A stretch of 30,874 nt of DNA from IMG/VR virus record IMGVR_UViG_3300032307_000369, positions 1-30,874 of that record; one strand, 5' to 3'. The notes below the pieces were generated by a model that worked only from the letters and a program-made list of their open reading frames with translations, ran no database searches and was not told the DNA's origin. The translations under genes were made by a program, and so were the position numbers. Source of the DNA: a virus. This document shows positions 2,682 through 18,977 of this stretch, piece after piece (the stretch's first letter is position 1; each line of letters opens with the position of its first letter).

Positions 2682-2684
2682 ACT

Positions 2685-2758: not shown

Positions 2759-2766
2759 ACAAAACC

Positions 2767-2842: not shown

Positions 2843-2843
2843 A

Positions 2844-2920: not shown

Positions 2921-2928
2921 TAAAACTT

Positions 2929-3003: not shown

Positions 3004-3079
3004 AAATTGCTAAGGGACACATTCTAATGTTGTTTGAGACTGAGCTGGGGGTCTGTGTTCAGCAAGTCTCCCTTCTAAC
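3004..3079 (-). other. Hairpin-rich spacer between tRNA-Asp and tRNA-Ile
   Basis: A 76-base gap whose ends pair (AAGGGA 3012-3017 with TCCCTT 3069-3074), with an inner AGACT/AGTCT stem. It contains no gene. It could be a small RNA or a processing spacer. Confidence 0.3.
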
Positions 3080-3155
3080 TGGCGCCGTGGACGGGAATCG
3101 AACCCGCCTAAATCGGATAGACAATCCGGTGCTCTACCCAGAGAACTACCACGGC
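3080..3155 (-). tRNA. tRNA-Asp (GTC)
   Basis: Perfect acceptor GCCGTGG/CCACGGC, anticodon loop TTGTCTA, T-arm GCGGG/CCCGT, discriminator G and encoded CCA. Confidence 0.94.
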
Positions 3156-3247
3156 ATATAACGTAAGGCTATGCGAGCTCATCTGCATACTTAGGCTTTT
3201 TGTCTTCTCCTGCCCGGGCAGTTACGACTGTAGCGTCACCTTATGAT
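3156..3247 (-). other. Hairpin-rich spacer between tRNA-Glu and tRNA-Asp
   Basis: A 92-base gap with no gene. It holds a perfect 12-base palindrome CTGCCCGGGCAG (3210-3221), a TATGC/GCATA hairpin (3170-3174 with 3185-3189) and a weak closing stem TAAGG/CCTTA (3164-3168 with 3239-3243). It may be a small structured RNA. Confidence 0.3.
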
Positions 3248-3322
3248 TGGCATCCTGCACGGGTATCGATCCCGTTCCTACACCTTGAAAGGGTGTTGAT
3301 CTAGCCAGTAATCTAGCAGGAT
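3248..3322 (-). tRNA. tRNA-Glu (TTC)
   Basis: Perfect acceptor ATCCTGC/GCAGGAT, anticodon stem ACACC/GGTGT with loop CTTTCAA, discriminator G and encoded CCA. The T-loop reads ATCGATA, so position 54 is A instead of the near-universal T. Confidence 0.92.
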
Positions 3323-3328
3323 ATAATT

Positions 3329-3414
3329 TGGTGGAGCCGGTTGGACTTGAACCAACAATGCACGGGGGCGGCGGATTTACAGTCCACTGGGGTTACCAAT
3401 TTTCCTACGACTCC
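3329..3414 (-). tRNA. tRNA-Tyr (GTA)
   Basis: Class II tRNA: acceptor GGAGTCG/CGGCTCC, anticodon stem GTGGA/TCCGC with loop CTGTAAA, GC-rich variable arm, discriminator A and encoded CCA. It is the first tRNA transcribed from the upstream promoters. Confidence 0.93.
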
Positions 3415-4249: not shown

Positions 4250-4819
4250 CTATTCTTTATCAGCAAGATTGAAGTCTACTGGGATTGCAAGCCTACACTG
4301 TCCTTGGAAAGGATTAACATAATGATACAGGAAACTAGGGAAGATTGCAAATTCTCCTGACTTTGGACTGTATACATTGGATTTAAATTTTGGCATCATC
4401 TCAAGTAGATAGCCTCTGTTTGCGTTGACTCTTGGATCTTCCAGTGTGAGTTCCCCACCCTTGCCATCTTCAACCAATAGATAAAAGACTCCAGTCATGT
4501 GGGATCCTGAGTGATTGTGATTGATCATAAAGTATCCAGGAGAATATCCTGCAACCCATCCACGTAGATAACTGTGTGGGTAATTGGACAAGTCCAAATC
4601 AAAAGATTCTTTTAAAAATGTAGCAAACGCAGGGAGTACTACTTCTGTTTTGAATCGTTCAATTATTGCTGACCCTGACTCAAATATGTTATCTTGAAGT
4701 ATATCGCTTGGCGGATTTTGTAAATCGTAAAGGGCAAACAGTTCACCAACTAGATCATTCAACAGATTCTGATCTTTGATTGAATCTTTAAGCACAGGTG
4801 TGGGCCAAAGATAGTTCAT
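4250..4819 (-). CDS. 2OG-Fe(II) oxygenase, last gene of the radical SAM operon
   Basis: 189 aa, resembling the putative 2OG-Fe(II) oxygenase family Pfam PF13759. Candidate iron ligands are His101/His103 in an N-H-N-H segment and His166; Gly121-Gly122-Glu123 and Asp128 mark the central strands and Arg176 is placed to bind 2-oxoglutarate. The ATG at 4819 is preferred over an upstream TTG at 4840, because the TTG would sit almost on top of its AAGGAG and the protein aligns from the ATG. Translation is probably coupled to the preceding gene, which ends 5 bases earlier. Substrate unknown; context suggests a protein or peptide also handled by the radical SAM enzymes. Confidence 0.85.
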   Translation of the reverse strand: MNYLWPTPVLKDSIKDQNLLNDLVGELFALYDLQNPPSDILQDNIFESGSAIIERFKTEVVLPAFATFLKESFDLDLSNYPHSYLRGWVAGYSPGYFMINHNHSGSHMTGVFYLLVEDGKGGELTLEDPRVNANRGYLLEMMPKFKSNVYSPKSGEFAIFPSFLYHYVNPFQGQCRLAIPVDFNLADKE

Positions 4820-4823
4820 TCCA

Positions 4824-5225
4824 TTAGTTAACAAGGTCAAACTCCTTTAAAAAATACATCTTTACATCTGGTATAATACCAATCTCTTCATTAAAATCAA
4901 AACCTACTGCATTCAGTATCTTATTGTATGTATCTTTATCCTGCTCGTAGGGAACATAGTATGGATCGTTGCCATGTAGCAATTCTGGATCATTTAGTGA
5001 TTCGTAAAAATCCTCACTAAAATGCTGGTTAAGCCATCGAGCATAGCATATGGCAACTACATAACTCTTAGCAGGATATACCCAACCTAATTCTGTTGTT
5101 GTAAAATACTTAATGGCGTTTTCTACTATTTCATCTCGTACTTCAACTTTGTGCAGACTTAGATCATCATCGTGTTCAGTATTGAGTCTGTGAAATATCT
5201 CTTGACGTATCTTCCATTCTTTCAT
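4824..5225 (-). CDS. Unknown protein of the radical SAM operon (133 aa)
   Basis: Not recognised. The protein is acidic and aromatic-rich with likely helices and no cysteine cluster, signal or membrane segment (only Cys at about residue 60). It overlaps the end of the upstream radical SAM gene by 50 bases, unusually long for this operon, and ends 5 bases before the next oxygenase. It could be a partner or substrate-recognition protein, but nothing in the sequence shows this. Confidence 0.7.
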   Translation of the reverse strand: MKEWKIRQEIFHRLNTEHDDDLSLHKVEVRDEIVENAIKYFTTTELGWVYPAKSYVVAICYARWLNQHFSEDFYESLNDPELLHGNDPYYVPYEQDKDTYNKILNAVGFDFNEEIGIIPDVKMYFLKEFDLVN

Positions 5226-6126
5226 AATATTCTAATAATCCTCGATAGCCATTACAACTGTTGGTTAGATCTCTAACGTATCTGTAATGTTCTGTTAAAC
5301 AATGACCCTTAAAAGGACAACTTTGACATATTGGGCTTAGACTTTGTTTTTCTTTTTCTGCCCAAGCAATGTATTCCTCAAAACTGTCTAGTTCTAAGAA
5401 GTATTCGTTATCGTTGAGATCAAACTCTAAAACAGCAAAATTTCCTTTAGGAGTAATGTACACATGGTCATCACTAAAACTGTTATATATTTTATCTAAA
5501 CTATCTTGTATATGATATTCATTGATAAACTCAAACTTCTTCTCTACTGGACTCTCTAACCACTTGATAACAAAGTTTTCAAAATCTCTGTGTGACACAC
5601 TGTGACAGTTGGCTTGGTTGGTGCTGTATGGTTTGATCTCAACTGATGATACTGCACTGCACATATTCAATTCATGTATCATGCTATCAACATCTAGGTC
5701 AATTAATTTTTTACTGGCTAGGATAAGAACGTATAAAGGCTTTTGAGACATCAGCATATTTTGATATACAGTTTCATTTTTTTCTCTAGCTTCAAAATCG
5801 TAGCTGACACTGAGCGTAATGTCATCGTCAAAGAACCAATCATGTATCATACTGTAGTTGGTTATGATATTAATAGAACCTGTATAATATTTTTTAATGG
5901 TACGTTTTAGTTCATAAAATTCTTCACGTTTTAAAATTCCAATTTCACCACCATACAAATCAATACCTTTAATTTTTGTATGTGCTGTAATTTGTTGTAG
6001 ACGTGTTTCTAACTGCTCAGAACTAATAGTCAATCTGTCACGTAGCTGTTGAGGAGTTAGGTAACAGAAGTTGCAACTAAAATTACAATAGTACGTTGGG
6101 TTAATGGATACTGTAACTTCACGCAT
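5176..6126 (-). CDS. Radical SAM protein with C-terminal Cys cluster
   Basis: 316 aa. Cys14, Cys18 and Cys21 form the CxxxCxxC motif for the SAM-binding 4Fe-4S cluster, and a GGE-type SAM motif follows near residue 60. Near the C-terminus a cluster of cysteines (CxxC, then C and C, residues about 263-290) resembles a SPASM/twitch auxiliary-cluster domain, seen in peptide-modifying radical SAM enzymes. It overlaps the end of the previous radical SAM gene by 8 bases. Reaction and substrate unknown; anaerobic-type chemistry on a protein or peptide is an inference from domain type and neighbours. Confidence 0.85.
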   Translation of the reverse strand: MREVTVSINPTYYCNFSCNFCYLTPQQLRDRLTISSEQLETRLQQITAHTKIKGIDLYGGEIGILKREEFYELKRTIKKYYTGSINIITNYSMIHDWFFDDDITLSVSYDFEAREKNETVYQNMLMSQKPLYVLILASKKLIDLDVDSMIHELNMCSAVSSVEIKPYSTNQANCHSVSHRDFENFVIKWLESPVEKKFEFINEYHIQDSLDKIYNSFSDDHVYITPKGNFAVLEFDLNDNEYFLELDSFEEYIAWAEKEKQSLSPICQSCPFKGHCLTEHYRYVRDLTNSCNGYRGLLEYYERMEDTSRDISQTQY

Positions 6127-7189
6127 ATTCTTTTACATACTCTGTTGGTTCTAAAATGCCTGACATGTTATTAGCTTCAATGATCTTAGGCGCGAGTGCC
6201 TTCATGCGTATACAATGTGCCTCTACTAGATTGAAATCTTTTAGGTCTTTGATTGTTTTGCGACAGCCGTTACAAATTTCAAACATTGGACAAGTGTAAC
6301 ATGCTTGCTTCAAACTTTGTAGTTCAGGCTCTACTCTTAATGGGAAGATCTTTTTACCTAACATCTCTTCTTTAAAATTGATTGAGTACAGTCTGTCATC
6401 TCCAAATGATCCACAACTGTAGTAGTCCCCGCTTGGTTGTAGTGTTCTAATACCGCCATCACATTTACGATTTTGTGGACATGATGTTGCGCCACCGTTT
6501 AATCGCTTGACCATTTGTTTAGTATTAAACTCCCATTCAGTCAACCCTAGTTCCCAAATCTTAACATATATTTCGTAAATCTTTGCCAGCATGTAGGGTT
6601 TGCCCTCTTGTCCCATTACAATGTTTTTAAATTTAACAGGGGGACCACTACTAAAAGCATAGTTGAGTTTACATTCAACACCCATCTTCTTAGCAAGCTC
6701 TACATTCTTAATGGCAAGATGTTCATTCTCTTCTGTAATAACACTAATAAAGTCTGGACGATAACCCACGTGCTCTAACATAGCATCACTTACAGCCCAA
6801 AAATCTTCTTCACTAAATTCTGTAAGGTCACCCTTTAATCTTCCGCCACCGTATTGGAATGATGTAGTAATACCCATGCGTTTGTGATTAAACAACTCTT
6901 TCCACTTGCTGGGATTTTTATAAAATGGCCAAAGATTAGATGTAAAACTTAACGTGGCATTAGAACCAATAGTTTCTAAATGTTCAATAATTTTCCAGTA
7001 GTAGCTAGGATCCATCATTAAAGGATCACCACCATTAACAATGATAGTTTGTGTTTCTGGGTAGCGTTTTAAAAATGCGTAGACATACTCTAAATCTAAT
7101 TCTAAAGATTTATCTTCAGTAATGTGTGTGCTACTACAGAACGTGCATTTAAAGTTACAACGTTCTGTTGGTTTAATTATTAAATCCAT
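6119..7189 (-). CDS. Radical SAM/SPASM protein
   Basis: 356 aa with CxxxCxxC at Cys11, Cys15, Cys18 and an N-G-G-D SAM motif near residue 52. The C-terminal part has a full-looking SPASM set: Cys in a C-x5-C pair, a GxxTLQPSGDYYSCG segment, then C-x2-C-x5-C-x2-C and a last Cys. SPASM enzymes modify ribosomal peptides or act in protein maturation using extra Fe-S clusters. Separated by one base from the 97 aa gene upstream and overlapping the next radical SAM gene. Confidence 0.9.
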   Translation of the reverse strand: MDLIIKPTERCNFKCTFCSSTHITEDKSLELDLEYVYAFLKRYPETQTIIVNGGDPLMMDPSYYWKIIEHLETIGSNATLSFTSNLWPFYKNPSKWKELFNHKRMGITTSFQYGGGRLKGDLTEFSEEDFWAVSDAMLEHVGYRPDFISVITEENEHLAIKNVELAKKMGVECKLNYAFSSGPPVKFKNIVMGQEGKPYMLAKIYEIYVKIWELGLTEWEFNTKQMVKRLNGGATSCPQNRKCDGGIRTLQPSGDYYSCGSFGDDRLYSINFKEEMLGKKIFPLRVEPELQSLKQACYTCPMFEICNGCRKTIKDLKDFNLVEAHCIRMKALAPKIIEANNMSGILEPTEYVKEYA

Positions 7190-7190
7190 T

Positions 7191-7484
7191 TTATTTTGAC
7201 AGTGGACTGCCTACTTCCAAATTGCCATCACCTCTTTCTAAACCATTCAATTGACGTATAACGTCCATGATTAAATGCTTATATTTCTGTGTAGGTCCTT
7301 CAAGTTCTTTAATCTTGGCATCCCAGTAATCTCTTTTCTCTGGAATCTCCATATCCCTAACGCAATTATTAGCGTATACCAAATACTCTTGGCAATAAAT
7401 TTCACGCTGTGCTTCGTACTTTTCTTTTAAAGAAATAAGTTCTTCTGGACTTAGGGTGTCTAAATCTACTCCATGGTCAATCAT
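7191..7484 (-). CDS. Small helical protein between two radical SAM genes
   Basis: 97 aa, not recognised. Mostly charged helix with possible coiled coil (residues 13-35 and 55-85), two cysteines (Cys31, Cys41) and a Gly/Ser-rich tail. Its ATG overlaps the stop of the cobalamin-type radical SAM gene (ATGA). Being small and placed between two radical SAM genes it could be a carrier or substrate, but it has no leader/core pattern that would prove it. Confidence 0.65.
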   Translation of the reverse strand: MIDHGVDLDTLSPEELISLKEKYEAQREIYCQEYLVYANNCVRDMEIPEKRDYWDAKIKELEGPTQKYKHLIMDVIRQLNGLERGDGNLEVGSPLSK

Positions 7485-9112
7485 GTTATTCTCCTAAATA
7501 GCTCATTCATTATTACTAATTTGTTTTCTTCAACCCAACGAGGAATGGCTTCAGTCCTTACCACACCTTTGATAGTATTAATATTTCTAGGCGGAGTATC
7601 AGGATTTAAAATGTCTTCAATTTCATCATAGATCTCTTGATACCCATCTAAAATTTTAAAAATCTCCCAACAGTGTTTTGCAAATTCACTCACAGTAACA
7701 CTGTCTTTAAACATGTCATACATTGTTCGTATTAAATTGTTGCCTGCAAAATTCATGAAAAACATTTGCACAACATCTTCTCTTGTAAAAGAATAGCTAC
7801 TGGCAACTGTTTTATAATATGTTCTGCGATTCTTAAATAATCCGCCTTGGTTGGCAATATCCTGTTCATCAACGTTGTCAGTATATACATCAACCAGCTC
7901 AATGTTGTAAATTTCTTGATAAACAGGATCACTAATTTCGCTGTCAGGTAACGCCATTAAGTCGTAACGCCAACTTGACCATGCTCCCAAATCATAAAAC
8001 AATTCCCATTCTGCATAAAAATCATCTAAGGTACTTCCTGGCATGGCCATGATAAGTTCCATGCCAGGATGATAATCATATTTGGCACATAGATCCCGCA
8101 TGTATTTGCCAAGTTTAATTTTATCTGAGACTTTCATATCAGTGCGTTTAGCAACTTGCATTGCAACATCACTGATGCTTTGAATACTGATGTTGGGCAC
8201 AATGGCTGCTCTATCTTTTCTACCAAACGGTTGAATGATCTCAAAGAAACTATCTACTAGTCTTTTTCTTCTTTCGTAGTCTTTTGTTTTTACTTGACTG
8301 ATATCAATGAAGGTTAACCCTGCATCTTTGGCAAACTTTAAGAGTCCTAAGTCACGTTCTTCAAACACACCAAAATTAGCATCAGCACAAATAGCTTCAG
8401 TATATCCTGCTTCTACAATAGCAACACAATCCCGTTGAGCCCATTCAACTTCTTTTTTAATAATTTTTCCACCAATGCCGCCACCCCATTCACAATAGGT
8501 ACATTTAAAAGGACAACCTCTTGTGGTCTCAATGACCATCATGAGTTCCATATCGTGTTCACGACCATAGGCACTGAGTTCTTTTAGGAAACTTAGATTC
8601 TCTTCATACGGACTTGCTAGTGGAAATTCCCAACGCTGTTGTTTATTAGAACGTAACTCATAAGTGATTTGATTGACATCAATATTATCTTCAATGTATT
8701 GATCAATTACGTCAGTGACAAAGAATTCACCAGGGAACATAGGGCGTAAAATATAATCATACATCCAACGTTTTTGCCAAAGCTCTTTGTCTTTGGCTCC
8801 TATCATTGGACCACCTAGCAAATTTACTACTTTTGGATTTTGTTTTTTAACGTATTCAGCAATGTTGTCGCACAGTGTATAATTCCAAACATAACTGCTG
8901 TACATGACTATATCAGCTTCTTTAATTAGCTCATATATCTCTTCAATGTTTTGATACTTGTTATATTTGTAAGGAGGTTCTAGCCATTCAACTTGATCGG
9001 CGTATTTTCCGTTATGCTCGTAAAAACTTTTGCATAGCATCCACGTGACTGGATTGATTAAACTCCAGTCGGCATGTGGCGGATTGATAAAGGCTATTTT
9101 GATTCTTTTCAT
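7481..9112 (-). CDS. Radical SAM protein with probable cobalamin-binding N-terminus
   Basis: 543 aa. The N-terminal ~150 residues (FINPPHADWSL at 8-18, a hydrophobic VNLLGGP at 96-102) resemble the B12-binding domain of class B radical SAM enzymes, though no clear DxHxxG is visible. Cys200, Cys204 and Cys207 form CxxxCxxC inside the typical TTRGCPFKCTYCEWG. B12 radical SAM enzymes typically methylate unreactive carbons, but ring rearrangements and other chemistries exist. No ribosome site precedes the ATG and a weak promoter lies at 9123-9151, so it may also be expressed by itself. Confidence 0.88.
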   Translation of the reverse strand: MKRIKIAFINPPHADWSLINPVTWMLCKSFYEHNGKYADQVEWLEPPYKYNKYQNIEEIYELIKEADIVMYSSYVWNYTLCDNIAEYVKKQNPKVVNLLGGPMIGAKDKELWQKRWMYDYILRPMFPGEFFVTDVIDQYIEDNIDVNQITYELRSNKQQRWEFPLASPYEENLSFLKELSAYGREHDMELMMVIETTRGCPFKCTYCEWGGGIGGKIIKKEVEWAQRDCVAIVEAGYTEAICADANFGVFEERDLGLLKFAKDAGLTFIDISQVKTKDYERRKRLVDSFFEIIQPFGRKDRAAIVPNISIQSISDVAMQVAKRTDMKVSDKIKLGKYMRDLCAKYDYHPGMELIMAMPGSTLDDFYAEWELFYDLGAWSSWRYDLMALPDSEISDPVYQEIYNIELVDVYTDNVDEQDIANQGGLFKNRRTYYKTVASSYSFTREDVVQMFFMNFAGNNLIRTMYDMFKDSVTVSEFAKHCWEIFKILDGYQEIYDEIEDILNPDTPPRNINTIKGVVRTEAIPRWVEENKLVIMNELFRRIT

Positions 9113-9122
9113 AGATTATACT

Positions 9123-9151
9123 ATTATACAGCATAAAGTTAACAATTACAA
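9123..9151 (-). promoter_or_regulatory. Possible internal promoter of the operon
   Basis: Minus strand TTGTAA (9146-9151), 17 bases, TATAAT (9123-9128). The -35 is 4/6. The implied start would be about 4 bases from the ATG of the cobalamin-type gene, giving a leaderless message. Confidence 0.35.
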
Positions 9152-9661
9152 GCCTTCTACATTATAAGTGAAACTAGCAAGTCTTCGTGTAATTTTACTT
9201 TTACTAGCTCTATGGAAAAAGCCAGGAGTTTGATTGAGCAACACTAAATCTCCTTTTTTAGGATAGTAAGTGTCAATGTTACCTTCCCCGGGCCATTTGA
9301 ATTGTATTTCCCCACCAGTTGCAGGGTTCTGGTCATCAAAGTAAAATAAGAAGAAGATATTACCTCCTTCAAATCCATCGTTGTGCCAAATACTGCTGTC
9401 AGCATCTACACCTTCAGCAATAACATAACTCATAAAATTATTCTTTGGAAACGCTTGATTAATGTATTTTTCAGTTATGTATACTTTGGCTGCTTCCATT
9501 TGCAACACTACTTCTTTAGGCAGGTTATCTTTAAAGTTATCACGCAAACGCTCTTCATGATATTGAAACTCTACGCTATCAATATCGATCATGCTGGCTA
9601 ATTCTTCTTCTCTAAAATAAGCATATCCTTTAGTAAGGAAATCATTCTTCCAATCTAACAT
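9146..9661 (-). CDS. 2OG-Fe(II) oxygenase
   Basis: 171 aa with a clear HxD...H iron triad: His93, Asp95 and His150, plus Gly116-Gly117-Glu118 and an Arg159/Arg160 pair for 2-oxoglutarate binding. It is closer to the prolyl-hydroxylase-like group than the two PF13759-like oxygenases of the operon. One base separates it from the preceding radical SAM gene. Likely hydroxylates a protein or small molecule made in the pathway. Confidence 0.87.
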   Translation of the reverse strand: MLDWKNDFLTKGYAYFREEELASMIDIDSVEFQYHEERLRDNFKDNLPKEVVLQMEAAKVYITEKYINQAFPKNNFMSYVIAEGVDADSSIWHNDGFEGGNIFFLFYFDDQNPATGGEIQFKWPGEGNIDTYYPKKGDLVLLNQTPGFFHRASKSKITRRLASFTYNVEGL

Positions 9662-9662
9662 C

Positions 9663-10685
9663 TCATTTCTCCAGTTTCATTTGTACGTATTTAAATGACT
9701 TTTTAAAAACACACTCATCTAAGTCTTTGGTTAATTCTTTATAGTCACTGCTGATAAAACAACTGAACCCGCATTTTTGATAAAACTCACAAGTAAAGCA
9801 ATTGCGTTCATTCATAAAGTTTTGAATAATAGCTGTGCCTTCTAAATTGGATGTGACATTGTTTTTCATCAACACACTTCCTGAACACCCTTTAGGTGAA
9901 GTGTTATCGTACATAATAGTAAAACTACTACCACGTGTACAAGCCATTTTATTGTTGGGTGCAGTTCCTAAAAATGATTCTACATTCATAGTCTTAGGAT
10001 ACTTATCAATTAATGTTTTATAAAATTCATACAACTCTGACTCTTTTGGCATCATTACTTTTAATGCGTTATGACCAGGTAACAAGTGATCCCATGTCAT
10101 GGTAAAGTTATTGTACAAGTAATCGTGATACTCGTCACCCTTTAAAAGATTAGCAATATTTTGTTTAGTGATTACCAGGCTGATTAATTTAACATAAGGT
10201 TTGAACTGTTCAATATTTTGTTTAAAAATTTCAAACTGAGCAGGATTAAATCTGCCAGCTAGGTCATAACTAACACTCATAGTCAAGTCGTATTTTTGAC
10301 AAAACTGTATCACATGATCCATTCTATCGTTAACTAAATTCGTAACAAAGTTGAAGATTAACACTTTATCCTTAGGAACTTTGTTTCGAACTTGTTTTAT
10401 GAATTCGCCGTAATACTCAATAAAGCCTTGATCTATTAGTTCATCCTGAAATAGTTCGCCACCCATAATATGTAGGTGAAATTCTTTGTTTTTATTATTT
10501 TTAATCCAATTGCATACAGGGTCAACTTTTTTTAGAATTTCCTCTTGGCTCAAACCAATACGACTGTTATGATCCTGTGGACAGAATACACAACTCATAT
10601 TGCAATGTTCAAAGAAGTTGACTACGATCTCAGACCAGTCAATTACTTTTTCCTTTATTACGCCATAAAAAAATTCATCACTCAT
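9663..10685 (-). CDS. Radical SAM protein with C-terminal Cys cluster
   Basis: 340 aa; Cys28, Cys32, Cys35 form CxxxCxxC and a GGE SAM motif lies near residue 75. The C-terminal region carries several cysteines including C-x2-C-x5-C-x3-C around residues 297-310 and a final Cys, like a SPASM or twitch domain. ATGA overlap with the upstream 380 aa gene. Substrate not known; the neighbours are an oxygenase and an unknown paralogue pair. Confidence 0.87.
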   Translation of the reverse strand: MSDEFFYGVIKEKVIDWSEIVVNFFEHCNMSCVFCPQDHNSRIGLSQEEILKKVDPVCNWIKNNKNKEFHLHIMGGELFQDELIDQGFIEYYGEFIKQVRNKVPKDKVLIFNFVTNLVNDRMDHVIQFCQKYDLTMSVSYDLAGRFNPAQFEIFKQNIEQFKPYVKLISLVITKQNIANLLKGDEYHDYLYNNFTMTWDHLLPGHNALKVMMPKESELYEFYKTLIDKYPKTMNVESFLGTAPNNKMACTRGSSFTIMYDNTSPKGCSGSVLMKNNVTSNLEGTAIIQNFMNERNCFTCEFYQKCGFSCFISSDYKELTKDLDECVFKKSFKYVQMKLEK

Positions 10686-11824
10686 GCAAACACCATTTGT
10701 TTTAATCTAGGATCGTTATTATTTTTTAACTCATACACAAGTTGTAGAATATAATTATTCCATTTTTGTACATGGGTTAGTATATCAAATACAATACTAA
10801 CGTTGTCCTTTTCAAAGTCTTTCTTTAGTATGCTGTTTATCTGTTCAGACGTCATGTTATCACGATTTTGAATCAGTGACCTTAACGTGTCAAAAACAAA
10901 ATGGGCATGATTACTTTCAAAGTAGTCTTCATCTAGTAATCTTATCTTATCATCTATTTGAATATCTTTGAACCAAAACTCTTGTAAGAATTTTCCAAGT
11001 TCTAATATTTCATCAATGTGTGCTAGAAAGTAAGCACTGTCCCTAGTTATGAACTTTAATTCGTTGTCAAACATCCAATATAACTTTGGATGAGATCTAA
11101 GTTTTTCTCTCCAACAATCATCGTCCCAAGATATATCTAAATCAAATGCTTCTTTTACATTTGCTTGCATGAAGTACTTGATAAAATAGAAGTACCACTC
11201 GCTAACTTCCATGGCTAATGCTTTTGATAACACATAGATGTATTTGTCTTTAAAAACTTCAATATGTGTTTCATCATTGAAAAAGTTTGCAAGATGCCAT
11301 TCAATACTGAATCCTTCAATGTGCTGTTTAACCCATTGTTGTCTTAGACCATTGTCACTCCATGGATTTAGATTATCAAATAATTCAATAAATTGTTTTT
11401 TGTTTAAGAACTCTATGTCAAGTATACTTGTTTTATTAAAATCCATAAAACTACTATTCAGCACTATAGCAGGGAAATGTAGTTTTGATCTTTGTACAGA
11501 TGCATTATAGCAACAAAATGCCAAGTTAGCATCCATGTTAGGAAAAATTGTTTTTATCCAGTTTACAAAGATGATATTAAAAGCATCCATGTCAACATAA
11601 AAGTTAAGTTTAGCTTCGTGCTCTAAACTGAGTAATAGTGAATGCCAATCTTTATAAGCACCATTTGCGCCCACTAGGTCTGCATACGTTGTAGCTTGAT
11701 GCTTGATTGGGTTTAGTGTAGACTTTTGTGCAACATTGGGATTTTTACTGACGATGATTCTTTTTTTAGAATTGTTGACTAGATAGTCTGGAGAGACATA
11801 TATTTTATTAAAAAGGTGTAACAT
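10682..11824 (-). CDS. Unknown protein, paralogue of the 12395-13555 product
   Basis: 380 aa. It shares with the 386 aa neighbour an N-terminal M-x-HLF-x-K-x-Y start, an A/D-DLVG motif (48-52), a YVD motif (76-78) followed by NWIK (88-91), and a similar overall helical, aromatic-rich composition. No catalytic motif, signal or membrane segment is seen. The family is unknown to me. Two diverged copies flanking an oxygenase inside a modification operon suggest a role as scaffold or substrate-binding partner; this is only inference. TAATG overlap with the upstream oxygenase. Confidence 0.8.
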   Translation of the reverse strand: MLHLFNKIYVSPDYLVNNSKKRIIVSKNPNVAQKSTLNPIKHQATTYADLVGANGAYKDWHSLLLSLEHEAKLNFYVDMDAFNIIFVNWIKTIFPNMDANLAFCCYNASVQRSKLHFPAIVLNSSFMDFNKTSILDIEFLNKKQFIELFDNLNPWSDNGLRQQWVKQHIEGFSIEWHLANFFNDETHIEVFKDKYIYVLSKALAMEVSEWYFYFIKYFMQANVKEAFDLDISWDDDCWREKLRSHPKLYWMFDNELKFITRDSAYFLAHIDEILELGKFLQEFWFKDIQIDDKIRLLDEDYFESNHAHFVFDTLRSLIQNRDNMTSEQINSILKKDFEKDNVSIVFDILTHVQKWNNYILQLVYELKNNNDPRLKQMVFA

Positions 11825-12369
11825 TATACAATCCTTTTATATTGATCTACATAAGATTCGTACCCGTCAGTGTTAATATATAAATCAAATGGCATGCACA
11901 ATCTTGTTCCCGGTCCACGATGAGTTAGTACTTCATGTCCTAAATAACTAGGGAAGATTAATAGGTCGCCAGGTTCTGGATGAATTTCAACTGGGTTGAA
12001 CCAACTTTGATTGATGTTAATTTGTTGTGATGGAGGATGTAATACGATTTCTCCTCCAGTTGCAGTTTGAAGATAAAATATCCCAGATAACCATCCCCAA
12101 GGATGCCAATGCCAACGAGCACTGTCTCCAGGCTCAATATACAGCATATTGCCGTTTAATTTTACCTCTGCACCTTTAGGTAGCTCTTCTTTCCAAGTTT
12201 CTGAAACAGCACTCATGATTTTTTCATAAAGTTTAGCTGTGAACTCGTCAGTGTCTTTAAACCATTTATTTTCGTGCTTGCTTACAACATCACTTTGAAA
12301 CATGAGTGTTGCCAACTCTTCGTTACCATGCTCATAATGTATTTTAGTTGGCCAAATTTCTCTTTTCAT
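11824..12369 (-). CDS. 2OG-Fe(II) oxygenase
   Basis: 181 aa, typical of the PF13759-like putative oxygenases: His87/His89 in a W-H-W-H-P segment followed by WLSGIFYL, Gly105-Gly106-Glu107, the PEPGDLLIFPS stretch, distal His145 and Arg156. AAAGG precedes the ATG. It sits between the two paralogous unknown proteins, whereas the operon's other oxygenases neighbour radical SAM genes. Confidence 0.88.
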   Translation of the reverse strand: MKREIWPTKIHYEHGNEELATLMFQSDVVSKHENKWFKDTDEFTAKLYEKIMSAVSETWKEELPKGAEVKLNGNMLYIEPGDSARWHWHPWGWLSGIFYLQTATGGEIVLHPPSQQININQSWFNPVEIHPEPGDLLIFPSYLGHEVLTHRGPGTRLCMPFDLYINTDGYESYVDQYKRIV

Positions 12370-12394
12370 TTAAACGCCTTTATAACACATTTGG

Positions 12395-13555
12395 TTATTG
12401 GATCACAAATGCGTTTAATTTAGATATTTGATTTTCTTTGTACAGTTGTTTTATATGCGCTAAGAGATAGATGTTATATCTAATTTTATCGTCAGAACCA
12501 AAAATTAGAAATTCTGTAACATTACTAGAACCGTCTATTTCATTCATAATTAGAGTTTCTAAATCGCTGTCAGTCAATTCAGATTTTCTACACATAGTAA
12601 AAACTTCTTTATTATGATTGATCCAGTTCAAGCCATTCTCGCCTGGATCATTTAATAATCCCAATGTCCAGTAAATGGTCAAGTGAGCTTTAAATTTTTC
12701 AAACTGTGAAGCAGTAATGTTGTTAAAATAAATCAAGCTATCGCTGTGTGGAACCGCAATTGATTCAACTCCCCAAATAGAAGAAGAGAACCAAATATCA
12801 AATGCAGGGTCTTCAACGGCTTCAGCTAGATTACTAGTAGTATACGTCTTTGTTGGACTGAATAAGTTTATGACATCTGGATTTAATAAATTTTCTATAA
12901 TGAAGCTTTTGCATTCATAAAAAGATTCTTGCATACCAAACTGTCTTTTGTTCAGTGCTATTGTTTTTAATTGTTCTTTACATGACCCATTGGCTAGATA
13001 AGATGCCAATAATAGTTCTAGACTTAAATCTGATTTAACTAGATTAACAAAACCATTGTACACGCTTGAATCTACATTGATTTGATAAAATACTTGACTA
13101 AACTCTTGTTGACTAATAAAATCTGCAATTTGAGTTTCTCTATAAGATCTTGAATAATTGTAGTATGTAGATGTTCCAAACATTCTAGTTTGAAACTGGT
13201 AAGTTGATACCATAGTATATGCATCATCAACTGTAGCTGACGGCAATACTGCTTTGATCCATGTGATTACAATCTTTAAAAAGTTTTCTTTATCTACATA
13301 TACAATGAGTTTTCTATCGCTAGTAAATGTATATTGATTTAACGAATTTAAAAATAACAGAAAGTTAGAATATTTTTTATCTTCTCCAACTAAATCGTCA
13401 ATTGATCTTGCATATTCGATCAACCTTCCATGCGCTACTCCATCAAGGTCTTGGAGCATACTAACTCCATTGGTTTGAGAAATAACAAGTCTGTCGTTGT
13501 TAACATCAATAACATCGTCAGATTCTAAATAAACTTTTTTAAACAGATGGAACAC
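12395..13555 (-). CDS. Unknown protein, paralogue of the 10682-11824 product
   Basis: 386 aa starting at a GTG preceded by GAGGAGA. N-terminus MFHLFKKVYL, DDLVG at 53-57, YVD at 86-88 and TWIK at 98-101 align with the 380 aa paralogue; the C-terminal halves have diverged more. Predicted soluble and helical. The start overlaps the end of the previous gene by 17 bases. Function unknown. Confidence 0.8.
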   Translation of the reverse strand: MFHLFKKVYLESDDVIDVNNDRLVISQTNGVSMLQDLDGVAHGRLIEYARSIDDLVGEDKKYSNFLLFLNSLNQYTFTSDRKLIVYVDKENFLKIVITWIKAVLPSATVDDAYTMVSTYQFQTRMFGTSTYYNYSRSYRETQIADFISQQEFSQVFYQINVDSSVYNGFVNLVKSDLSLELLLASYLANGSCKEQLKTIALNKRQFGMQESFYECKSFIIENLLNPDVINLFSPTKTYTTSNLAEAVEDPAFDIWFSSSIWGVESIAVPHSDSLIYFNNITASQFEKFKAHLTIYWTLGLLNDPGENGLNWINHNKEVFTMCRKSELTDSDLETLIMNEIDGSSNVTEFLIFGSDDKIRYNIYLLAHIKQLYKENQISKLNAFVIQ

Positions 13556-14252
13556 TTTGAATCTCCTCGATATCTCTTTTCATTGCTTCAACGAAATCAT
13601 CAGGATTAAACTTGTCAACGACAATCGCCCATGTTATAATGAAAATAGAGTTGTTGGGGTTAGCCCAATAATGGTATAAATTTTTACCTTTAAAAATATA
13701 GTCGTTAAAATATACTTCATGATACTTGAAGTTTTTGCTGTCTACAGTACTGTAGAAATCATAAAAATCATCATACTTCAATAATGATACAAAATTAATT
13801 CCAATGGTTAAATTGTTATCAAATCTTGGAGCTTGCTTAATTTGCTCTTTATAATTGTCATCATTAATTGAATATGTATTAAAATATAATAGGCTATCTA
13901 GTATACTAGCCCATACATCTAGTAGCTCTTTGTTTGCTTTGATAAACTCAGTATAACCAAAGTCATTTACTCCCTTATATTGCAGTAATAAACGTATGGC
14001 TTCTTTTTCTAAGAAAGGAATATTGACTAGAAAAGGTGAATTTAAATAATCAAGTAATAGCCCGTCAGCTAACTCAGTGTGTGCTTCTAACTTGATATCT
14101 GAAGGAATATCTAAATTACTAAGATAAGTTAATAACTTTGTCCCTTTCAAATCGCTGTTTTCATAATCAATTAGATAAAATGTTTCTTTATCAGCAAAAT
14201 ATTTTTTTAATTCTTCAATTTTAATAGGCGCAGTTGTTTCAATAATTTTCAT
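13539..14252 (-). CDS. Unknown protein (237 aa)
   Basis: Not recognised. Soluble, rich in Tyr, Phe, Asp and Lys, with no cysteines and no obvious motif. Composition resembles the two larger unknown proteins that follow but I could not align it to them convincingly. Its ATG overlaps the stop codon of the Cys-His-tailed protein (ATGA), so the two are made together; a chaperone or partner of that protein is one possible role. Confidence 0.75.
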   Translation of the reverse strand: MKIIETTAPIKIEELKKYFADKETFYLIDYENSDLKGTKLLTYLSNLDIPSDIKLEAHTELADGLLLDYLNSPFLVNIPFLEKEAIRLLLQYKGVNDFGYTEFIKANKELLDVWASILDSLLYFNTYSINDDNYKEQIKQAPRFDNNLTIGINFVSLLKYDDFYDFYSTVDSKNFKYHEVYFNDYIFKGKNLYHYWANPNNSIFIITWAIVVDKFNPDDFVEAMKRDIEEIQSVPSV

Positions 14253-14848
14253 CTTCTGCCTCTTGAATTATGGCAATTGCTATGACAACTAACGTGGCAA
14301 ACTTCTTTATAGTAAGTGGTACCATCGTCACCTAAGATATTTGGTCTAAGAGTTTGATATACTGTACTCATGTTAAGAATAAAGTTATTTAAATTTCCTC
14401 TAGAAATGATGTTGTTTGATTGTATGTCAAAATAGTTATTGATCACTGTAGGTTGCTCGCCCTGAGAAGTGATCGCAATCCTAGTCAAGTCAACGTTGCT
14501 AGTTGTTGCTGTGTATGGACCAGCTGGGGTATTTCCGCCGTTACCTGTGACTTTACGAACACAGCGTATATTTCTAATTCTAGTATAATATTGAATAATT
14601 AGACGTATGCCTTCAGTTACGCCGTCAGCCTCAATTACTCCAAGAGCTCCAAAATTATTATTAACTTCAACAGGATCTAATCCTCCCCAATCAGTGCGAT
14701 GGGCAAACCAACCGTCTTCTGCTTCTGGAAATGGTTTAATGTTTGTGCCCCAAACAATACCGGTTCTAGCAACACCGTTGATTTGTTCAATAGTACGTTG
14801 AACAATGGTTAATCGTCTAATTGGTCCTGGACTTTCTAATGCTGGCAT
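14249..14848 (-). CDS. Protein with C-terminal Cys-His tetrapeptide repeats, candidate modification substrate
   Basis: 199 aa. Residues 184-195 are three tandem tetrapeptides CHVS-CHSN-CHNS, followed by the basic end RGRR. Only one other cysteine (about residue 96) is present. The body (W, G, N and T-rich, FAHRTDWGG near 48-56) looks like a folded, possibly virion-type protein and not like a short leader. It lies 1 base after a radical SAM/SPASM gene, with AAGGA before the ATG. By analogy with ribosomally made, radical-SAM-modified peptides the tail could be the modified core; a metal-binding tail without modification is the alternative. Confidence 0.8.
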   Translation of the reverse strand: MPALESPGPIRRLTIVQRTIEQINGVARTGIVWGTNIKPFPEAEDGWFAHRTDWGGLDPVEVNNNFGALGVIEADGVTEGIRLIIQYYTRIRNIRCVRKVTGNGGNTPAGPYTATTSNVDLTRIAITSQGEQPTVINNYFDIQSNNIISRGNLNNFILNMSTVYQTLRPNILGDDGTTYYKEVCHVSCHSNCHNSRGRR

Positions 14849-14849
14849 C

Positions 14850-15908
14850 TTAAATTTCCTTGATTATGAACACTCTGCTGTTCTTTTTAGTATTTATGTT
14901 TTCTAACTCTAGCATCAAACTCTTTGGAGCACCACAAACCTCGCCTTGCCATTCCAATTGATGACAGTCGCCGCCACATTTATGAAATACTGCACAGTTA
15001 TAGCATCTTGAGTCCATATTACGTTCGCAAGCCATATTTTCTAATCTACGCTCGCTAGTTAACAACGTAGTTAAATCATCGTCAATATGTCCAAACTGTT
15101 GCTCTGGAGCACTATTTGGACATCCAGATATAGTACCGTCAGCGTTCAGTGTGAATAACTTTTCCTCACAATCCCTACAAAAAGTTCCGCCTCGAGTAAG
15201 GTTGTGCTCAAATTTAGAATACACAGTTTCTAAAAATTCGTTATTAAACCATGATCTAGCATTGTGTTGCTCACTCAATTGATGCATGAGTAAAAACCAA
15301 GCATCTTGTTCCAAGTTGGTTGGAAATATATCAGGATACAGTCTAGCGTTTCCATTATTGGTCAAACGCTCTAAGCTCATTTCCTTAACACCCAAATCCC
15401 GTACCCATTCTAATAAATCCAAGGGATTCATTTTTACAGTTCCGCTGGTAACACTTATGAACAATTTAATTTCAACTCCCAGGTCCTGCAAAGTTTGTAA
15501 ATTCTTACGCCATAGGTCATACTGCTTGGGATTGGCAAATCTAATGTCTGGATCCCAACTAGTACCAATTCTGTTACCAAGCGGGCCTTGAATAAATGCA
15601 ATAATTTCTGGAGTGAGTTTAAACACTAGGTTAGTGGTAACTCCCCACGTCATATAGGGCCAAATCTCTTTACTTTGATCGTACACATACTGCATAGTAC
15701 TTAAATCAGCTAGGAAAGGTTCACCACCATGAAACTCACAATGAACATGTGGACTATTGGGAATCGCTTGACCCAACCTTCTCAGCCAGTCTGCTACTTT
15801 AACATGGTCCCAATATATCTTAGCACCGTTAGTTCCGCTGGTAAAACAGTGTTTGCAATTTAAATTACAAGTTTCTGTTGTTTTAAGGTAGATACTTAAT
15901 TCTTTCAT
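14850..15908 (-). CDS. Radical SAM/SPASM protein next to the Cys-His-tailed protein
   Basis: 352 aa with Cys14, Cys18, Cys21 (CxxxCxxC), a GGEP SAM motif near 60 and a C-terminal SPASM domain with a C-x2-C pair, an LNADGTISGCPN segment, and C-x2-C-x5-CGGDC plus a last Cys. This layout matches anaerobic sulfatase-maturating and peptide-modifying enzymes. The ATG at 15908 overlaps the stop of the cupin (ATGA) and puts the first Fe-S motif at the usual distance, so it is chosen over an upstream ATG at 15932. Prime candidate to act on the next gene's product. Confidence 0.9.
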   Translation of the reverse strand: MKELSIYLKTTETCNLNCKHCFTSGTNGAKIYWDHVKVADWLRRLGQAIPNSPHVHCEFHGGEPFLADLSTMQYVYDQSKEIWPYMTWGVTTNLVFKLTPEIIAFIQGPLGNRIGTSWDPDIRFANPKQYDLWRKNLQTLQDLGVEIKLFISVTSGTVKMNPLDLLEWVRDLGVKEMSLERLTNNGNARLYPDIFPTNLEQDAWFLLMHQLSEQHNARSWFNNEFLETVYSKFEHNLTRGGTFCRDCEEKLFTLNADGTISGCPNSAPEQQFGHIDDDLTTLLTSERRLENMACERNMDSRCYNCAVFHKCGGDCHQLEWQGEVCGAPKSLMLELENINTKKNSRVFIIKEI

Positions 15909-16363
15909 TTTAGCCCAATGCTTATTGCCCAAGTGTCTCTTTGATTGAACACTCTGTGTTTGTGCCCTTTTGGAATAGACACACTGTCGCCTGACTTTAG
16001 AATATAAGTTTTATTTTTGATTTGCACTCTTTTGCGACCCTTAATAACGTACAACATTACATTTGTGGTATCATGGTGCCAACCAAAACTATAGTCAGTT
16101 CTAGGACTATAGAATAAATGGATATCTTTAATTTTAAGTTTACCAAAACACTTTTTAATATTTTGGTTCTTTTCTAGTCCTTCAACCTTAATGGCCGAAT
16201 AGTTCCTAATACTAGCCACATACTGAGTATATGATAATTTTTGATTAGCATACCAAGACCACATGGTATGACCTGTTCTATCAATAACGACAATCTCGTT
16301 ATTGTCAAAACGCTCAAATGAAATTATCTCTTCCTTGAGCATTTTGTACAGCGTTTTTACCAC
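15905..16363 (-). CDS. Cupin-fold protein
   Basis: 152 aa, GTG start preceded by GAGGAT. The C-terminal half is a cupin barrel: His96-His97-Asp98, then VMLYVIKGRKRVQI, GDSVSIPKGHKHRV with His134/His136. The HxD-like first motif and the late His could bind Fe(II), making this a possible further dioxygenase of the JmjC/cupin group, or a non-enzymatic sugar-binding cupin. The N-terminal ~80 residues are not recognised. Confidence 0.75.
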   Translation of the reverse strand: MVKTLYKMLKEEIISFERFDNNEIVVIDRTGHTMWSWYANQKLSYTQYVASIRNYSAIKVEGLEKNQNIKKCFGKLKIKDIHLFYSPRTDYSFGWHHDTTNVMLYVIKGRKRVQIKNKTYILKSGDSVSIPKGHKHRVFNQRDTWAISIGLK

Positions 16364-17271
16364 TTAATAAATCCTCGACTGTATCCTTCAGGACGATTAT
16401 ATCCATCTTCAAACGCCTGCTGCCATTCTGTATTTCTATCGTATCCCTTAGTCCAAAATTGACTAACATCTAGATCTCCACGCTCAATCCAACCTACAGC
16501 CAATTTCATACAATGATGGAATGTTTTTGCACGTGGACTTGGCATGATAATAGTAACGGCTTTCCAAAGCAAACTACTAAAATTAGTTACTAGTGCGGGT
16601 TTCTTTTCACAAGCCATGATCCAAAGAGCACCTGGAGCAAGTAAGTCTTGTTCTATTACTAGATTGTTTTCTCTAATATCTATAATCACATTATACTGTT
16701 CATGTTGTGGTTTATCAACTAGCACTCCGTTGTATTTTTGCCACATGTCTTGATTACTACTACCAAGAACTTCAATGCTGGCAAACTCCACATGAGTTAG
16801 GGATAATGTATGATAAGCGATCCAAGCAAGAAATCCACTACCAATAATCAAACAGCGACTGTCTGGACCGCTACGGTCACCAACTGCACGTAAATCTTGT
16901 TCAACCAAATTAATGCCACAAGCAACTGGCTCAATAATATATTTTGGATCTGCTTCTGGAACTCTTACCCACTCATTCATTTTTACATTATAGAAGTCTG
17001 CATAAGCAGGCTCGCCACGAGTGGCTATGAAATCACCTTCTTTGATTCCGCTAACAAGAGCACCTACTCGTGTTACCTGACCAAGACCTTCATGCCCTTG
17101 CATGTGTAAAGGTAACGGACCAAACTCCCCACGCATCATAGCAATATCGCTACGACAAACACCAGTCATTACAGCTTTGACTTCAATTTCATTTGATAAT
17201 GGTTCAGGCTTCTCCCAAATTTGTTCTTTGAAAGCGCCGTTGCTGTCTGTATAAAGTAGCCTAGTTTTCAA
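16357..17271 (-). CDS. Zinc-type alcohol dehydrogenase (MDR family)
   Basis: 304 aa medium-chain dehydrogenase. Catalytic-zinc residues Cys39, His60-Glu61 (GHEGLG) and Glu114 are in place, followed by a Rossmann segment around CLIIGSGFLAW. The four-cysteine structural-zinc lobe is absent and the protein is shorter than the usual 340-350 aa. TTG start overlapping the stop of the Gfo/Idh gene, with GAGAGGAT upstream. Such enzymes oxidise polyols or sugars; paired with the Gfo/Idh gene it suggests handling of a sugar or sugar alcohol. Confidence 0.85.
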   Translation of the reverse strand: MKTRLLYTDSNGAFKEQIWEKPEPLSNEIEVKAVMTGVCRSDIAMMRGEFGPLPLHMQGHEGLGQVTRVGALVSGIKEGDFIATRGEPAYADFYNVKMNEWVRVPEADPKYIIEPVACGINLVEQDLRAVGDRSGPDSRCLIIGSGFLAWIAYHTLSLTHVEFASIEVLGSSNQDMWQKYNGVLVDKPQHEQYNVIIDIRENNLVIEQDLLAPGALWIMACEKKPALVTNFSSLLWKAVTIIMPSPRAKTFHHCMKLAVGWIERGDLDVSQFWTKGYDRNTEWQQAFEDGYNRPEGYSRGFIKW

Positions 17272-18152
17272 AACTGAATCCTCTCATGTATCCACAAGTC
17301 CTGTAAAAATTGTCTTTGCCAAAATTGCTCATTGCTTATGTTGCTGATAGCACAATCAATCATGTTTTTATACGCTTCTTCTGGACAAAGCCCTAACTCA
17401 AAACGTTTAACTGTGCCATCTTTCATTTCAAATTCTACTGCACGATTGTCTGCTACACCATCTGCCCAGTTAGCTTCCATCTTCCATGTTTTTCCATTTT
17501 GCATGTACTTGATCTTACAAAGATCGTCAACATCATACACACCGTCCCTTTTGACTGCGCCATATTCTGTATCTTCAATTTTGTCTAAAGTATGCATTTG
17601 GCGAGCTTCTTGTCCAGTCATTTGTGCGTCCATCCACTTGTCATTAAGTGCAATGTACAAACTGAGCAAGTGTGGCATAAGGTCTCTACTAACTCCACCA
17701 AATGCCAATTTCTTTGTAGTAAACCAAGTACCTGGACCTGGGATACGATTCTTGTTAATCCATTTAATTTTTATAGCCTTGGCATCTGCTACACACTCCC
17801 GCATCTCTGCAATGTTATCACGCCACATGTTATTTTTAACCAACATGAAACGTGTATTTGGGAATGTGTTTACAAGAGTTGACCACACGTCAGCATTGGA
17901 TACCCCAGGCTTTTCAATAAAGATTATTTTGGCATGTTTAGCCAATTTCATAGCCATTTCAAAATGTGTAAAGTTTGGAGTACAAATATGCACAGTATCA
18001 AAAGGACCATGAGCAAAAATAGCAGACTCAATATTGGGCAAGTCAGCACGTTTACCAATATCGTTATCTACTGTAATCACTTCAATTTTTAATTCTTCCA
18101 ACACTTTTTTGTATAGAGATCCAATCCCCATACCCACTACCAGGCTTTTCAT
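17268..18152 (-). CDS. Gfo/Idh/MocA-family oxidoreductase
   Basis: 294 aa. N-terminal nucleotide-binding fold (VVGMGIGS at 5-12), HICTPNFTHF at 55-64 and the family signature EKPG at 80-83. The C-terminal half carries an open-faced sheet domain with a possible His (RDLMPHLLSLY). Acts on sugars or inositol-like compounds with NAD(P); substrate unknown. ATGA-linked to the gene before and TTG-linked to the dehydrogenase after. Confidence 0.87.
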   Translation of the reverse strand: MKSLVVGMGIGSLYKKVLEELKIEVITVDNDIGKRADLPNIESAIFAHGPFDTVHICTPNFTHFEMAMKLAKHAKIIFIEKPGVSNADVWSTLVNTFPNTRFMLVKNNMWRDNIAEMRECVADAKAIKIKWINKNRIPGPGTWFTTKKLAFGGVSRDLMPHLLSLYIALNDKWMDAQMTGQEARQMHTLDKIEDTEYGAVKRDGVYDVDDLCKIKYMQNGKTWKMEANWADGVADNRAVEFEMKDGTVKRFELGLCPEEAYKNMIDCAISNISNEQFWQRQFLQDLWIHERIQF

Positions 18153-18616
18153 TTTTTATTTTCCTTAGTAAGTTCACACATCAAAACAAAATTATCGTAA
18201 GACTTGCGTACTGCTGGATTACTTATTAGCTCTTTGAATTCATCCATCATGGCTCTGACACCAGCCTCAGCCGCTTCTCTGTAACTACACCATTCAAGAG
18301 CATACCGTTCTTCGCCAAACTCTTCGGCTAGTTTTTTCCATGCTTCAAGTTGTCTAGGAGTAAGTGGCTTGTGTTTTTCTGGAACCCTCAGAGCACTGGC
18401 CTCCATGATTTTTCTACTGATAGCATCTTCAGCCACACGACCTGCGGCTATCAATGCGGCATAATCAGGATCTATATTATACACCCTGCTGGACCCGCCT
18501 GGATAAACTTGCACCATGTGAGTTCCCTTGCCAAAAGAGTCTGTGAGCTCTTGGTCGTATTCAGAAACTGGTTGGTAACGTCTGCCAACTTTTTTGTAAA
18601 AAACTGTTTTTTTCAT
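18149..18616 (-). CDS. Unknown phage protein (155 aa)
   Basis: Not recognised. Basic N-terminus (MKKTVFYKKVGRRYQPVSEY), a GGSSRVYNIDPDYAALIAAG segment and a long helical C-terminus. No signal or membrane segment. ATGA overlap with both neighbours; it is the second gene of the operon. Its composition differs from the enzyme genes and it may be a general phage protein and not part of the pathway. Confidence 0.75.
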   Translation of the reverse strand: MKKTVFYKKVGRRYQPVSEYDQELTDSFGKGTHMVQVYPGGSSRVYNIDPDYAALIAAGRVAEDAISRKIMEASALRVPEKHKPLTPRQLEAWKKLAEEFGEERYALEWCSYREAAEAGVRAMMDEFKELISNPAVRKSYDNFVLMCELTKENKK

Positions 18617-18921
18617 AGCAAGCCTGCTGAATCTTCTTTTAGAATTTTTGCATTTTGATTTGGGAACCGTTGCATAAAGATTTTACTTATTTCTTCTATA
18701 GTTTCGGCCTGACCAACAAATTGATTGTCGTCTTTCCTATAACAGTATAACACCTTGCCATGCTTTTCTAAAGTCAAAAGAACTTCTTCTTTTTCTTGCT
18801 CTTGTTTGATTTGTTTGACTACCAAATGTGTAATCATTTTGAGCATAAGTTTTTGAATAGCCCAAGAAAATATTACCCAACTTAGGACTCCTATCCAAAA
18901 CCCATTCCAAAATTCGTCCAT
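18613..18921 (-). CDS. Small membrane-anchored protein, first gene of the operon
   Basis: 102 aa with one N-terminal membrane segment (about 6-28, WNGFWIGVLSWVIFSWAI) followed by a charged, likely coiled-coil and cytoplasmic part. The ATG at 18921 follows GGAG by 6 bases; a GTG at 18927 overlaps that ribosome site and is rejected. Begins about 20 bases after the predicted transcription start. Function unknown. Confidence 0.75.
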   Translation of the reverse strand: MDEFWNGFWIGVLSWVIFSWAIQKLMLKMITHLVVKQIKQEQEKEEVLLTLEKHGKVLYCYRKDDNQFVGQAETIEEISKIFMQRFPNQNAKILKEDSAGLL

Positions 18922-18948
18922 AAACACTCCAAATTGTTCAGTATCGCT

Positions 18949-18977
18949 ATTATAATATAGTAGACATTACATGTCAA
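18949..18977 (-). promoter_or_regulatory. Consensus promoter of the radical SAM operon
   Basis: Minus strand TTGACA (18972-18977), 17 bases, TATAAT (18949-18954): a perfect sigma70 consensus. It faces away from the promoter at 19020-19048, so the interval is a divergent control region. Confidence 0.85.

Follow-up and report, generated by a model that had tools for sequence, protein, structure and literature searches.

The closest described relatives of the locus reported here are the radical S-adenosylmethionine (rSAM) peptide maturases with a SPASM domain (PapB, CteB, and AnSME; ranthipeptide and sactipeptide systems), the His-Xaa-Ser (Hxs) and CXXX-repeat rSAM systems, whose targets carry HxS and CXXX repeats, and, more broadly, systems for ribosomally synthesized and posttranslationally modified peptides (RiPPs). 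In phages, the accessible portions of published reports note multiple rSAM genes in Burkholderia phages FLC6 (PMC8066314) and S13 (PMC11898562) and in Ralstonia phages RP12/RP31 (PMC5468394), eight rSAM genes inside a structural cluster of Aeromonas phage 332-Vera, called "highly unusual" (PMC12390700), and 12 in one marine T4-like genome, where they are grouped with Fe-S genes (PMC5332604). Within those portions, the five reports name no substrate, tag, or function for these rSAMs.

We analyzed a stretch of 30,874 nucleotides (positions 1 to 30,874; hereafter the window) that is a portion of the 245,550-base viral record IMGVR_UViG_3300032307_000369. It encodes 19 open reading frames (ORFs) on the minus strand, running from 18927 to 4250 and mostly overlapping or separated by gaps of a few bases. 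An earlier note on this DNA had described a packed 19-gene operon with five rSAMs, three 2-oxoglutarate (2OG)-Fe(II) oxygenases, a cupin, and two sugar-type dehydrogenases. Pfam, PHROGs, and NCBIfam confirm the rSAMs, the oxygenases, the cupin, an alcohol dehydrogenase (ADH)-like protein, and a GFO/IDH/MocA protein. Absent from that note is a candidate substrate, at 14249-14848. With this protein included, we read the cassette from 16363 to 4250, at a probability of roughly 70%, as a phage-borne RiPP-like system that works on a tail-associated virion protein and modifies its C-terminal tail in place. The features on which this reading turns are the following.

14249-14848, minus strand: TAG, the candidate substrate, 199 amino acids, directly 3' of R5 and ending in CHVSCHSNCHNSRGRR before the stop codon
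14252-14299, minus strand: the 16-codon C-terminal tag of TAG (stop codon at 14249-14251)
14850-15932, minus strand: R5, rSAM with a full SPASM domain, the presumed primary tag maturase (NCBIfam, alignments)

The tag has the consensus CHxSCHxSCHxSRGRR, 16 residues rich in Cys and His. The tag, its strict C-terminal position, and its linkage to rSAM genes were computed directly. Viral contigs were scanned with CHxxCHxxCHxxRGRR, a pattern that does not demand a stop codon, and at least 120 stretches matched. Across all fetched viral loci, the motif ends exactly at the stop codon in every copy (196/196); in bacterial genomes chance matches to the pattern are scattered, while genuine tags once more finish at the stop codon. 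The residues C, H, C, H, C, H, R, R, and R are invariant in 155 distinct tagged proteins, and Ser predominates at positions 4, 8, and 12. Invariance at the scanned positions is partly by construction; loci anchored on the rSAMs, and thus found without the tag, show the same tag. Synonymous codons within it vary freely (TGT/TGC, CAT/CAC, and all six Arg codons). Because the residues are fixed while the synonymous codons vary, selection acts on the tag peptide.

Tag and rSAM genes occur together. Among the matches listed, 94 of 120 tag stretches hold an rSAM of these families, the nearest lying on the same strand in 93 of the 94, compared with none of 67 control viral stretches drawn by random 15-mer (Fisher P ~1e-29). 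Of the other 26 tag records, 25 have rSAM matches in another part of the record, mostly four to eight of them, and only an 18-kb fragment has none; overall, 119/120 of these tag-bearing viral records encode rSAMs. The association holds in the other direction as well. A search with R5 alone found 66 viral loci; where the downstream gene is intact, its product generally closes with the tag, in the form RGRR, RSRR, or RARR. The R5 loci L181, L182, and L184 are rearranged, with the tag gene several kilobases upstream. At locus L186 (11005-11589) the tag is shortened to CHSSCHSSCHGSI before the stop, a possible degeneration or sequencing error. In an annotated phage collection, R5 and R2, another rSAM of the operon, match exactly the same 7 of 50,697 records, and tags were read or matched in all distinct phages among them. 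The tagged cultured phages are Pseudomonas DT01, Burkholderia FLC6, FLC8, and S13, Agrobacterium Atu_ph07, and Sinorhizobium Phosso.

This linkage bears on the possibility that the tag stays unmodified, serving as a metal-binding or disulfide tail, and that the enzymes make something else, such as a nucleotide, tRNA, glycan, or small molecule. The CH-CH-CH arrangement could bind metal unaided, the enzymes are many for one tail, and the GFO and ADH genes precede the cassette here. Against this, tag and rSAMs are linked in 119/120 of the records listed, R5 is of the SPASM peptide-maturase type and adjoins the tag gene, and GFO and ADH are not conserved. We consider this explanation unlikely; judged from sequence patterns, chemical modification of the tag is very probable.

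The tag is found on at least two nonhomologous protein cores, and therefore behaves as a transferable signal. One core family accounts for 110 of the 155 tagged proteins; the remainder, which include a few larger proteins, are not joined to it. Tagged proteins of about 127 amino acids that occur in tandem do not match the TAG core family (hhalign probability 18%, over 22 columns). Such tandem pairs occur at loci L005, L110, L052, and others, with the rSAMs elsewhere in the record or adjacent but divergent; a tblastn search with a tandem-tag protein yielded weak tail-fiber matches but no tag-bearing cultured phage. AlphaFold2 predicts a confident core for TAG (mean pLDDT 80) and lower confidence for the tag itself. 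Sequence and fold searches of the PDB with TAG and with h3, the gene that follows it, yielded nothing convincing. In a viral structure library TAG resembles only other tag proteins, one small uncharacterized phage protein, and three myovirus proteins. The matches include the Atu_ph07 tag protein and one with the length of the DT01 tag protein; the three myovirus structures are larger proteins (504-660 amino acids) of Myoviridae sp. ctijX18.

The cassette as a whole, with active-site residues that were likewise computed directly, is conserved. The remaining genes within it are given below.

15905-16363, minus strand: cup, cupin/JmjC-like, opening the conserved cassette (PF07883 2.3e-11, PF08007 1e-7)
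13539-14252, minus strand: h3, conserved partner gene adjoining TAG (phrog_20767)
12395-13555, minus strand: pB, conserved, paralogue of pA
11824-12369, minus strand: O3, 2OG-Fe(II) oxygenase (PF13759 above cut-off; conserved H87/H145/R156)
10682-11824, minus strand: pA, paralogue of pB
9663-10685, minus strand: R3, rSAM with CxxxCxxC and SPASM-type Cys C249, C267, C296, C299, C305, C309, and C325
9146-9661, minus strand: O2, 2OG-Fe(II) oxygenase-like (PF13640-like, below cut-off)
7481-9112, minus strand: B12R, B12-binding and rSAM (PF02310), closest to KedN5-type C-methyltransferases (NF033712)
7191-7484, minus strand: h2, small protein (3 matches by sequence)
6119-7189, minus strand: R2, rSAM (PF04055 4.8e-9), SPASM-type Cys partial or twitch-like
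5176-6126, minus strand: R1, rSAM with a single C-terminal Cys cluster (C267, C270, C276, C291), partial or twitch-like
4824-5225, minus strand: h1, conserved small protein (phrog_20737)
4250-4840, minus strand: O1, 2OG-Fe(II) oxygenase (PF13759 above cut-off)

The recurrent order, seen in dozens of contigs, is cupin, R5, TAG, h3, pB, oxygenases, R3, (B12-rSAM), R2, R1, h1, and O1, and it recurs with variations in cultured jumbo phages of Pseudomonas, Burkholderia, Agrobacterium, and Sinorhizobium. Because gene order is kept in dozens of phages, the operon is not a chance assembly. The comparison of gene order that the earlier note had proposed thus found genes that stay together, and scattered enzymes in relatives were not found. 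The same note held that phages rarely carry more than one such enzyme; this is true of most phages, but the present cassette has a wide distribution, and earlier reports had already commented on rSAM-rich phages without explaining them (PMC12390700, PMC5332604). Among the rSAM-rich jumbo phages, Burkholderia FLC6 and S13 carry the cassette. That of FLC6 contains two genes annotated as dihydrofolate reductase (locus L192, 14741-15954).

Proximity to tail genes, also computed directly, is a property of most relatives and not of the window itself. Upstream of the cassette we identified a baseplate wedge subunit, a giant phrog_358 protein, a phrog_473 virion protein, and a fiber-like protein. At least one such tail, baseplate, or fiber family lies upstream in 39 of 47 testable R5 loci, versus 0-2 of the 67 controls per family. 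The tag protein is gp72 in Burkholderia phage FLC6 and gp170 in Atu_ph07. Mass spectrometry of Atu_ph07 is reported to have detected 131 virion proteins, with main clusters at CDS 31-76, CDS 170-215, and CDS 284-329 (PMC6102473); the gene numbering agrees with the Atu_ph07 record (gp181 baseplate, gp198 portal). On balance these data favor a location of the tag protein in the virion or its tail.

The tagged protein could instead be an effector, delivered by the phage or used by a predator, that acts in or on the host, with the modification serving to activate or protect it. TAG is small and soluble and lacks homologues of known structure, and predatory Bdellovibrionota keep the cassette on the chromosome (see below), all of which would suit an effector. 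Its gene, however, comes directly after tail-fiber or baseplate genes in most phages, and the Atu_ph07 virion cluster begins at the tag-protein gene (PMC6102473), so that we regard an effector role as fairly unlikely. The rSAMs could also be auxiliary metabolic genes connected with the Fe-S metabolism of the host. The grouping of the 12 rSAM genes of the marine T4-like genome with Fe-S genes (PMC5332604) would fit this idea. It leaves both the strict tag linkage and the tail-gene neighborhood unexplained, and we hold it to be extremely improbable.

Five of the operon proteins (R1, R2, B12R, R3, and R5) have both a CxxxCxxC motif and rSAM similarity in Pfam, PHROGs, and NCBIfam. The Pfam rSAM scores are modest, and R2 is the only one whose ORF by itself clearly exceeds the PF04055 cut-off. 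Family alignments show 98-100% conservation of the motif Cys in all five. The earlier note had seen SPASM-like Cys in most of these proteins. The set is complete in R5 and apparently so in R3, where the alignment makes it comparable to that of R5; it is partial in R2 and R1, and in the family alignment of B12R no SPASM-type Cys were seen. In R5, the motif (C22, C26, C29) is invariant, and the complete SPASM signature (C255x10G266x4C271, C310x2C313x5C319x3C323, and C333) is invariant in 46 sequences. Its nearest families are peptide or sulfatase maturases (PapB, AnSME). The best NCBIfam model is the PapB ranthipeptide maturase NF047865 (2.4e-14; 53.3 bits, below the cut-off of 340), and the solved-structure matches are 5wgg, which we take to be CteB, and 4k37. 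In B12R both domains were detected, and the match to the KedN5-type model NF033712 reaches 2.1e-24 (85.7 bits versus a cut-off of 700). R2 is 58-64% identical in several unrelated cultured phages, and 62-64% in the jumbo phages of Burkholderia, Agrobacterium, and Sinorhizobium. Because the latter values are clearly above the identity of R5 (~48%), R2 may be the most constrained enzyme of the cassette.

Hydroxylase-type sites are apparent in several of the partner enzymes. The facial triads of cup (HxD...H; H96/D98/H136) and of O2 (H93/D95/H150, plus R159) are 98-100% conserved. In the family alignments of O1 and O3, two His and one Arg are conserved and the HxD carboxylate was not seen. The earlier note had mentioned paralogues among the operon proteins; 12395-13555 and 10682-11824 are such a pair. 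No function emerged for TAG, h1, h2, h3, or pA/pB from Pfam, PHROGs, or NCBIfam. A superoxide dismutase assignment for pB was dismissed as noise, its sole PDB match having scored 0.31.

How does this gene set compare with the known systems? R5 shares the complete SPASM Cys signature with PapB, CteB, and AnSME, and, as in ranthipeptide and sactipeptide systems, a Cys-rich target gene is adjacent; here the Cys are spaced by CXXX. In contrast to those systems, R5 scores far below the family cut-offs, the target protein is large and tagged at its C terminus, with no leader removal and no exporter, and several rSAMs and oxygenases are involved in a phage-borne setting. The (C-HxS)x3 tag resembles a blend of the Hxs and CXXX repeats; matches to HxsC, HxsB, and TIGR04115 (TIGR03977, TIGR03978, and TIGR04115) are weak and below cut-off (22-32 bits versus 268-370), and the gene set differs. 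Like RiPP systems in general, the locus places the substrate gene directly after the maturase, with an invariant, modifiable core; unlike them, it has no leader peptidase or export gene by Pfam in the operon.

The resemblance of SPASM rSAM, B12-rSAM, and oxygenases to RiPP clusters might suggest that a secreted RiPP-type natural product or toxin is cleaved from the tag protein. By Pfam, none of the 19 operon genes is a peptidase, exporter or transporter, or immunity gene, several of them having no family match at all, and TAG shows no evident signal peptide. The folded core of about 180 amino acids is retained, and the gene is placed with tail genes. Because no peptidase or exporter was found, a secreted product is very unlikely. 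Of the purposes offered in the earlier note, the secreted product is disfavored, and there is good support for the multistep modification of a protein that may be a virion component. Heme attachment by the tag (CX3CH) was also set aside, given the absence of an evident signal peptide and of cytochrome-maturation genes in the operon.

For the in-place modification of a virion protein, we propose the following scheme. The substrate would be TAG, a folded protein of about 200 amino acids with a flexible C-terminal tag. R5 most likely recognizes the tag and acts first, its target probably being the three Cys, for example in thioether or other cross-links. The other rSAMs would elaborate the same tail, the B12-dependent one by C-methylation, and the Fe(II) oxygenases and cupin may hydroxylate its His, Arg, Ser, or Asn. 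h3 and pA/pB could serve as escort or recognition proteins. Because no peptidase or exporter was found, the modified tail is predicted to stay on the protein. The tag protein is most likely built into the tail, fiber, or baseplate region of the virion, where the modified tail may serve as a tip or contact site that is chemically hardened or binds metal.

Several observations weigh against this scheme. The enzymes seem numerous for a single tail of 16 residues. Eight of the 47 R5 loci are without tail genes, and the operon in the window is not beside recognized ones. The presence of gp170 in the Atu_ph07 virion is read from the boundary of the CDS 170-215 cluster (PMC6102473). Foldseek yields no known fold for TAG or h3. 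The rSAM model scores are below the NCBIfam cut-offs and therefore no specific chemistry can be assigned; any particular cross-link is doubtful. We infer the modification of the tag, the order and kind of reactions, the virion location, and the biological role.

Upstream of the conserved cassette, the operon begins with a promoter-like site and four genes.

18949-18977, minus strand: promoter-like site TTGACA-N17-TATAAT, just 5' of the first gene (sigma-70-type consensus match only)
18613-18927, minus strand: h5, small protein, outside the conserved cassette
18149-18616, minus strand: h4, outside the conserved cassette
17268-18152, minus strand: GFO/IDH/MocA oxidoreductase, accessory (PF01408 6e-8)
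16357-17271, minus strand: zinc alcohol dehydrogenase-like (ADH_N), accessory (PF08240 7.6e-10)

The consensus promoter of the earlier note is present as a 12/12 site (18977-18949), a match in letters that is not proof of promoter function. In gene-order comparisons, matches to h5, h4, GFO, and ADH (18927-16357) are limited to two near relatives, and on this basis we place them outside the conserved cassette. Sixteen tRNA genes (376-3414, minus strand) adjoin the downstream end of the operon. Nearby, on the strand opposite to the operon, is a cell wall hydrolase, likely an endolysin (20887-21429, PF07486). The window also encodes a phage gene similar to IMP dehydrogenase/GMP reductase (27573-28595; PF00478, 1.5e-71).

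The tag is not confined to viruses. Among the fetched bacterial loci it occurs once per genome in nine metagenome-assembled genomes of Bdellovibrionota, and it was found in 8 of 291 sampled Bdellovibrionota genomes. On long contigs the cassette (R5, TAG, h3, 2OG oxygenase, R1-R3, B12-rSAM, and h1) sits amid housekeeping-looking, nonphage genes, a chromosomal setting judged by reading the neighboring genes. In an h3 tree most Bdellovibrionota copies lie apart from phage copies, with weak deep support. Adjoining these cassettes (loci L308-L315) are proteins that combine a prepilin N_methyl motif with a Peptidase_S74 domain. S74 is present in only 1-4 copies per genome, yet in all five genomes with long-enough contigs its distance from the tag is at most about 17 kb. 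With its pilin-like S74 neighbors, this setting recalls the mosaic adhesive trimeric (MAT) S74 fibers of Bdellovibrio (PMC10769870). The tag proteins, in contrast, have no S74 match or evident signal peptide and are not MAT proteins. In the phage loci no homologue was detected of the fiber-associated domain that adjoins the Bdellovibrionota cassettes.

A search of open-access texts for the letters of the tag, or for rSAM with phage and RiPP, returned nothing relevant, and we know of no earlier multienzyme, RiPP-like maturation of a phage structural protein. We see in the cassette a previously undescribed form of rSAM/RiPP-like protein maturation, and there is a real chance of its being a new kind of virion chemistry. 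More tentatively, it may be a categorically new phage system, in which tails rewired by rSAMs and oxygenases on tail-fiber-associated virion proteins provide a chemical contact or metal center for host recognition or penetration, and in which Bdellovibrionota use the same machinery for pilus-borne fibers that contact prey. The named candidate substrate offers an explanation for the many rSAM genes in some jumbo and marine T4-like phages. If true, the proposal would hold for well over 100 phages from the environment, would connect phage tails with the fibers of predatory bacteria via shared chemistry, and would be, as far as we know, the first known multienzyme RiPP-like maturation of a phage structural protein.

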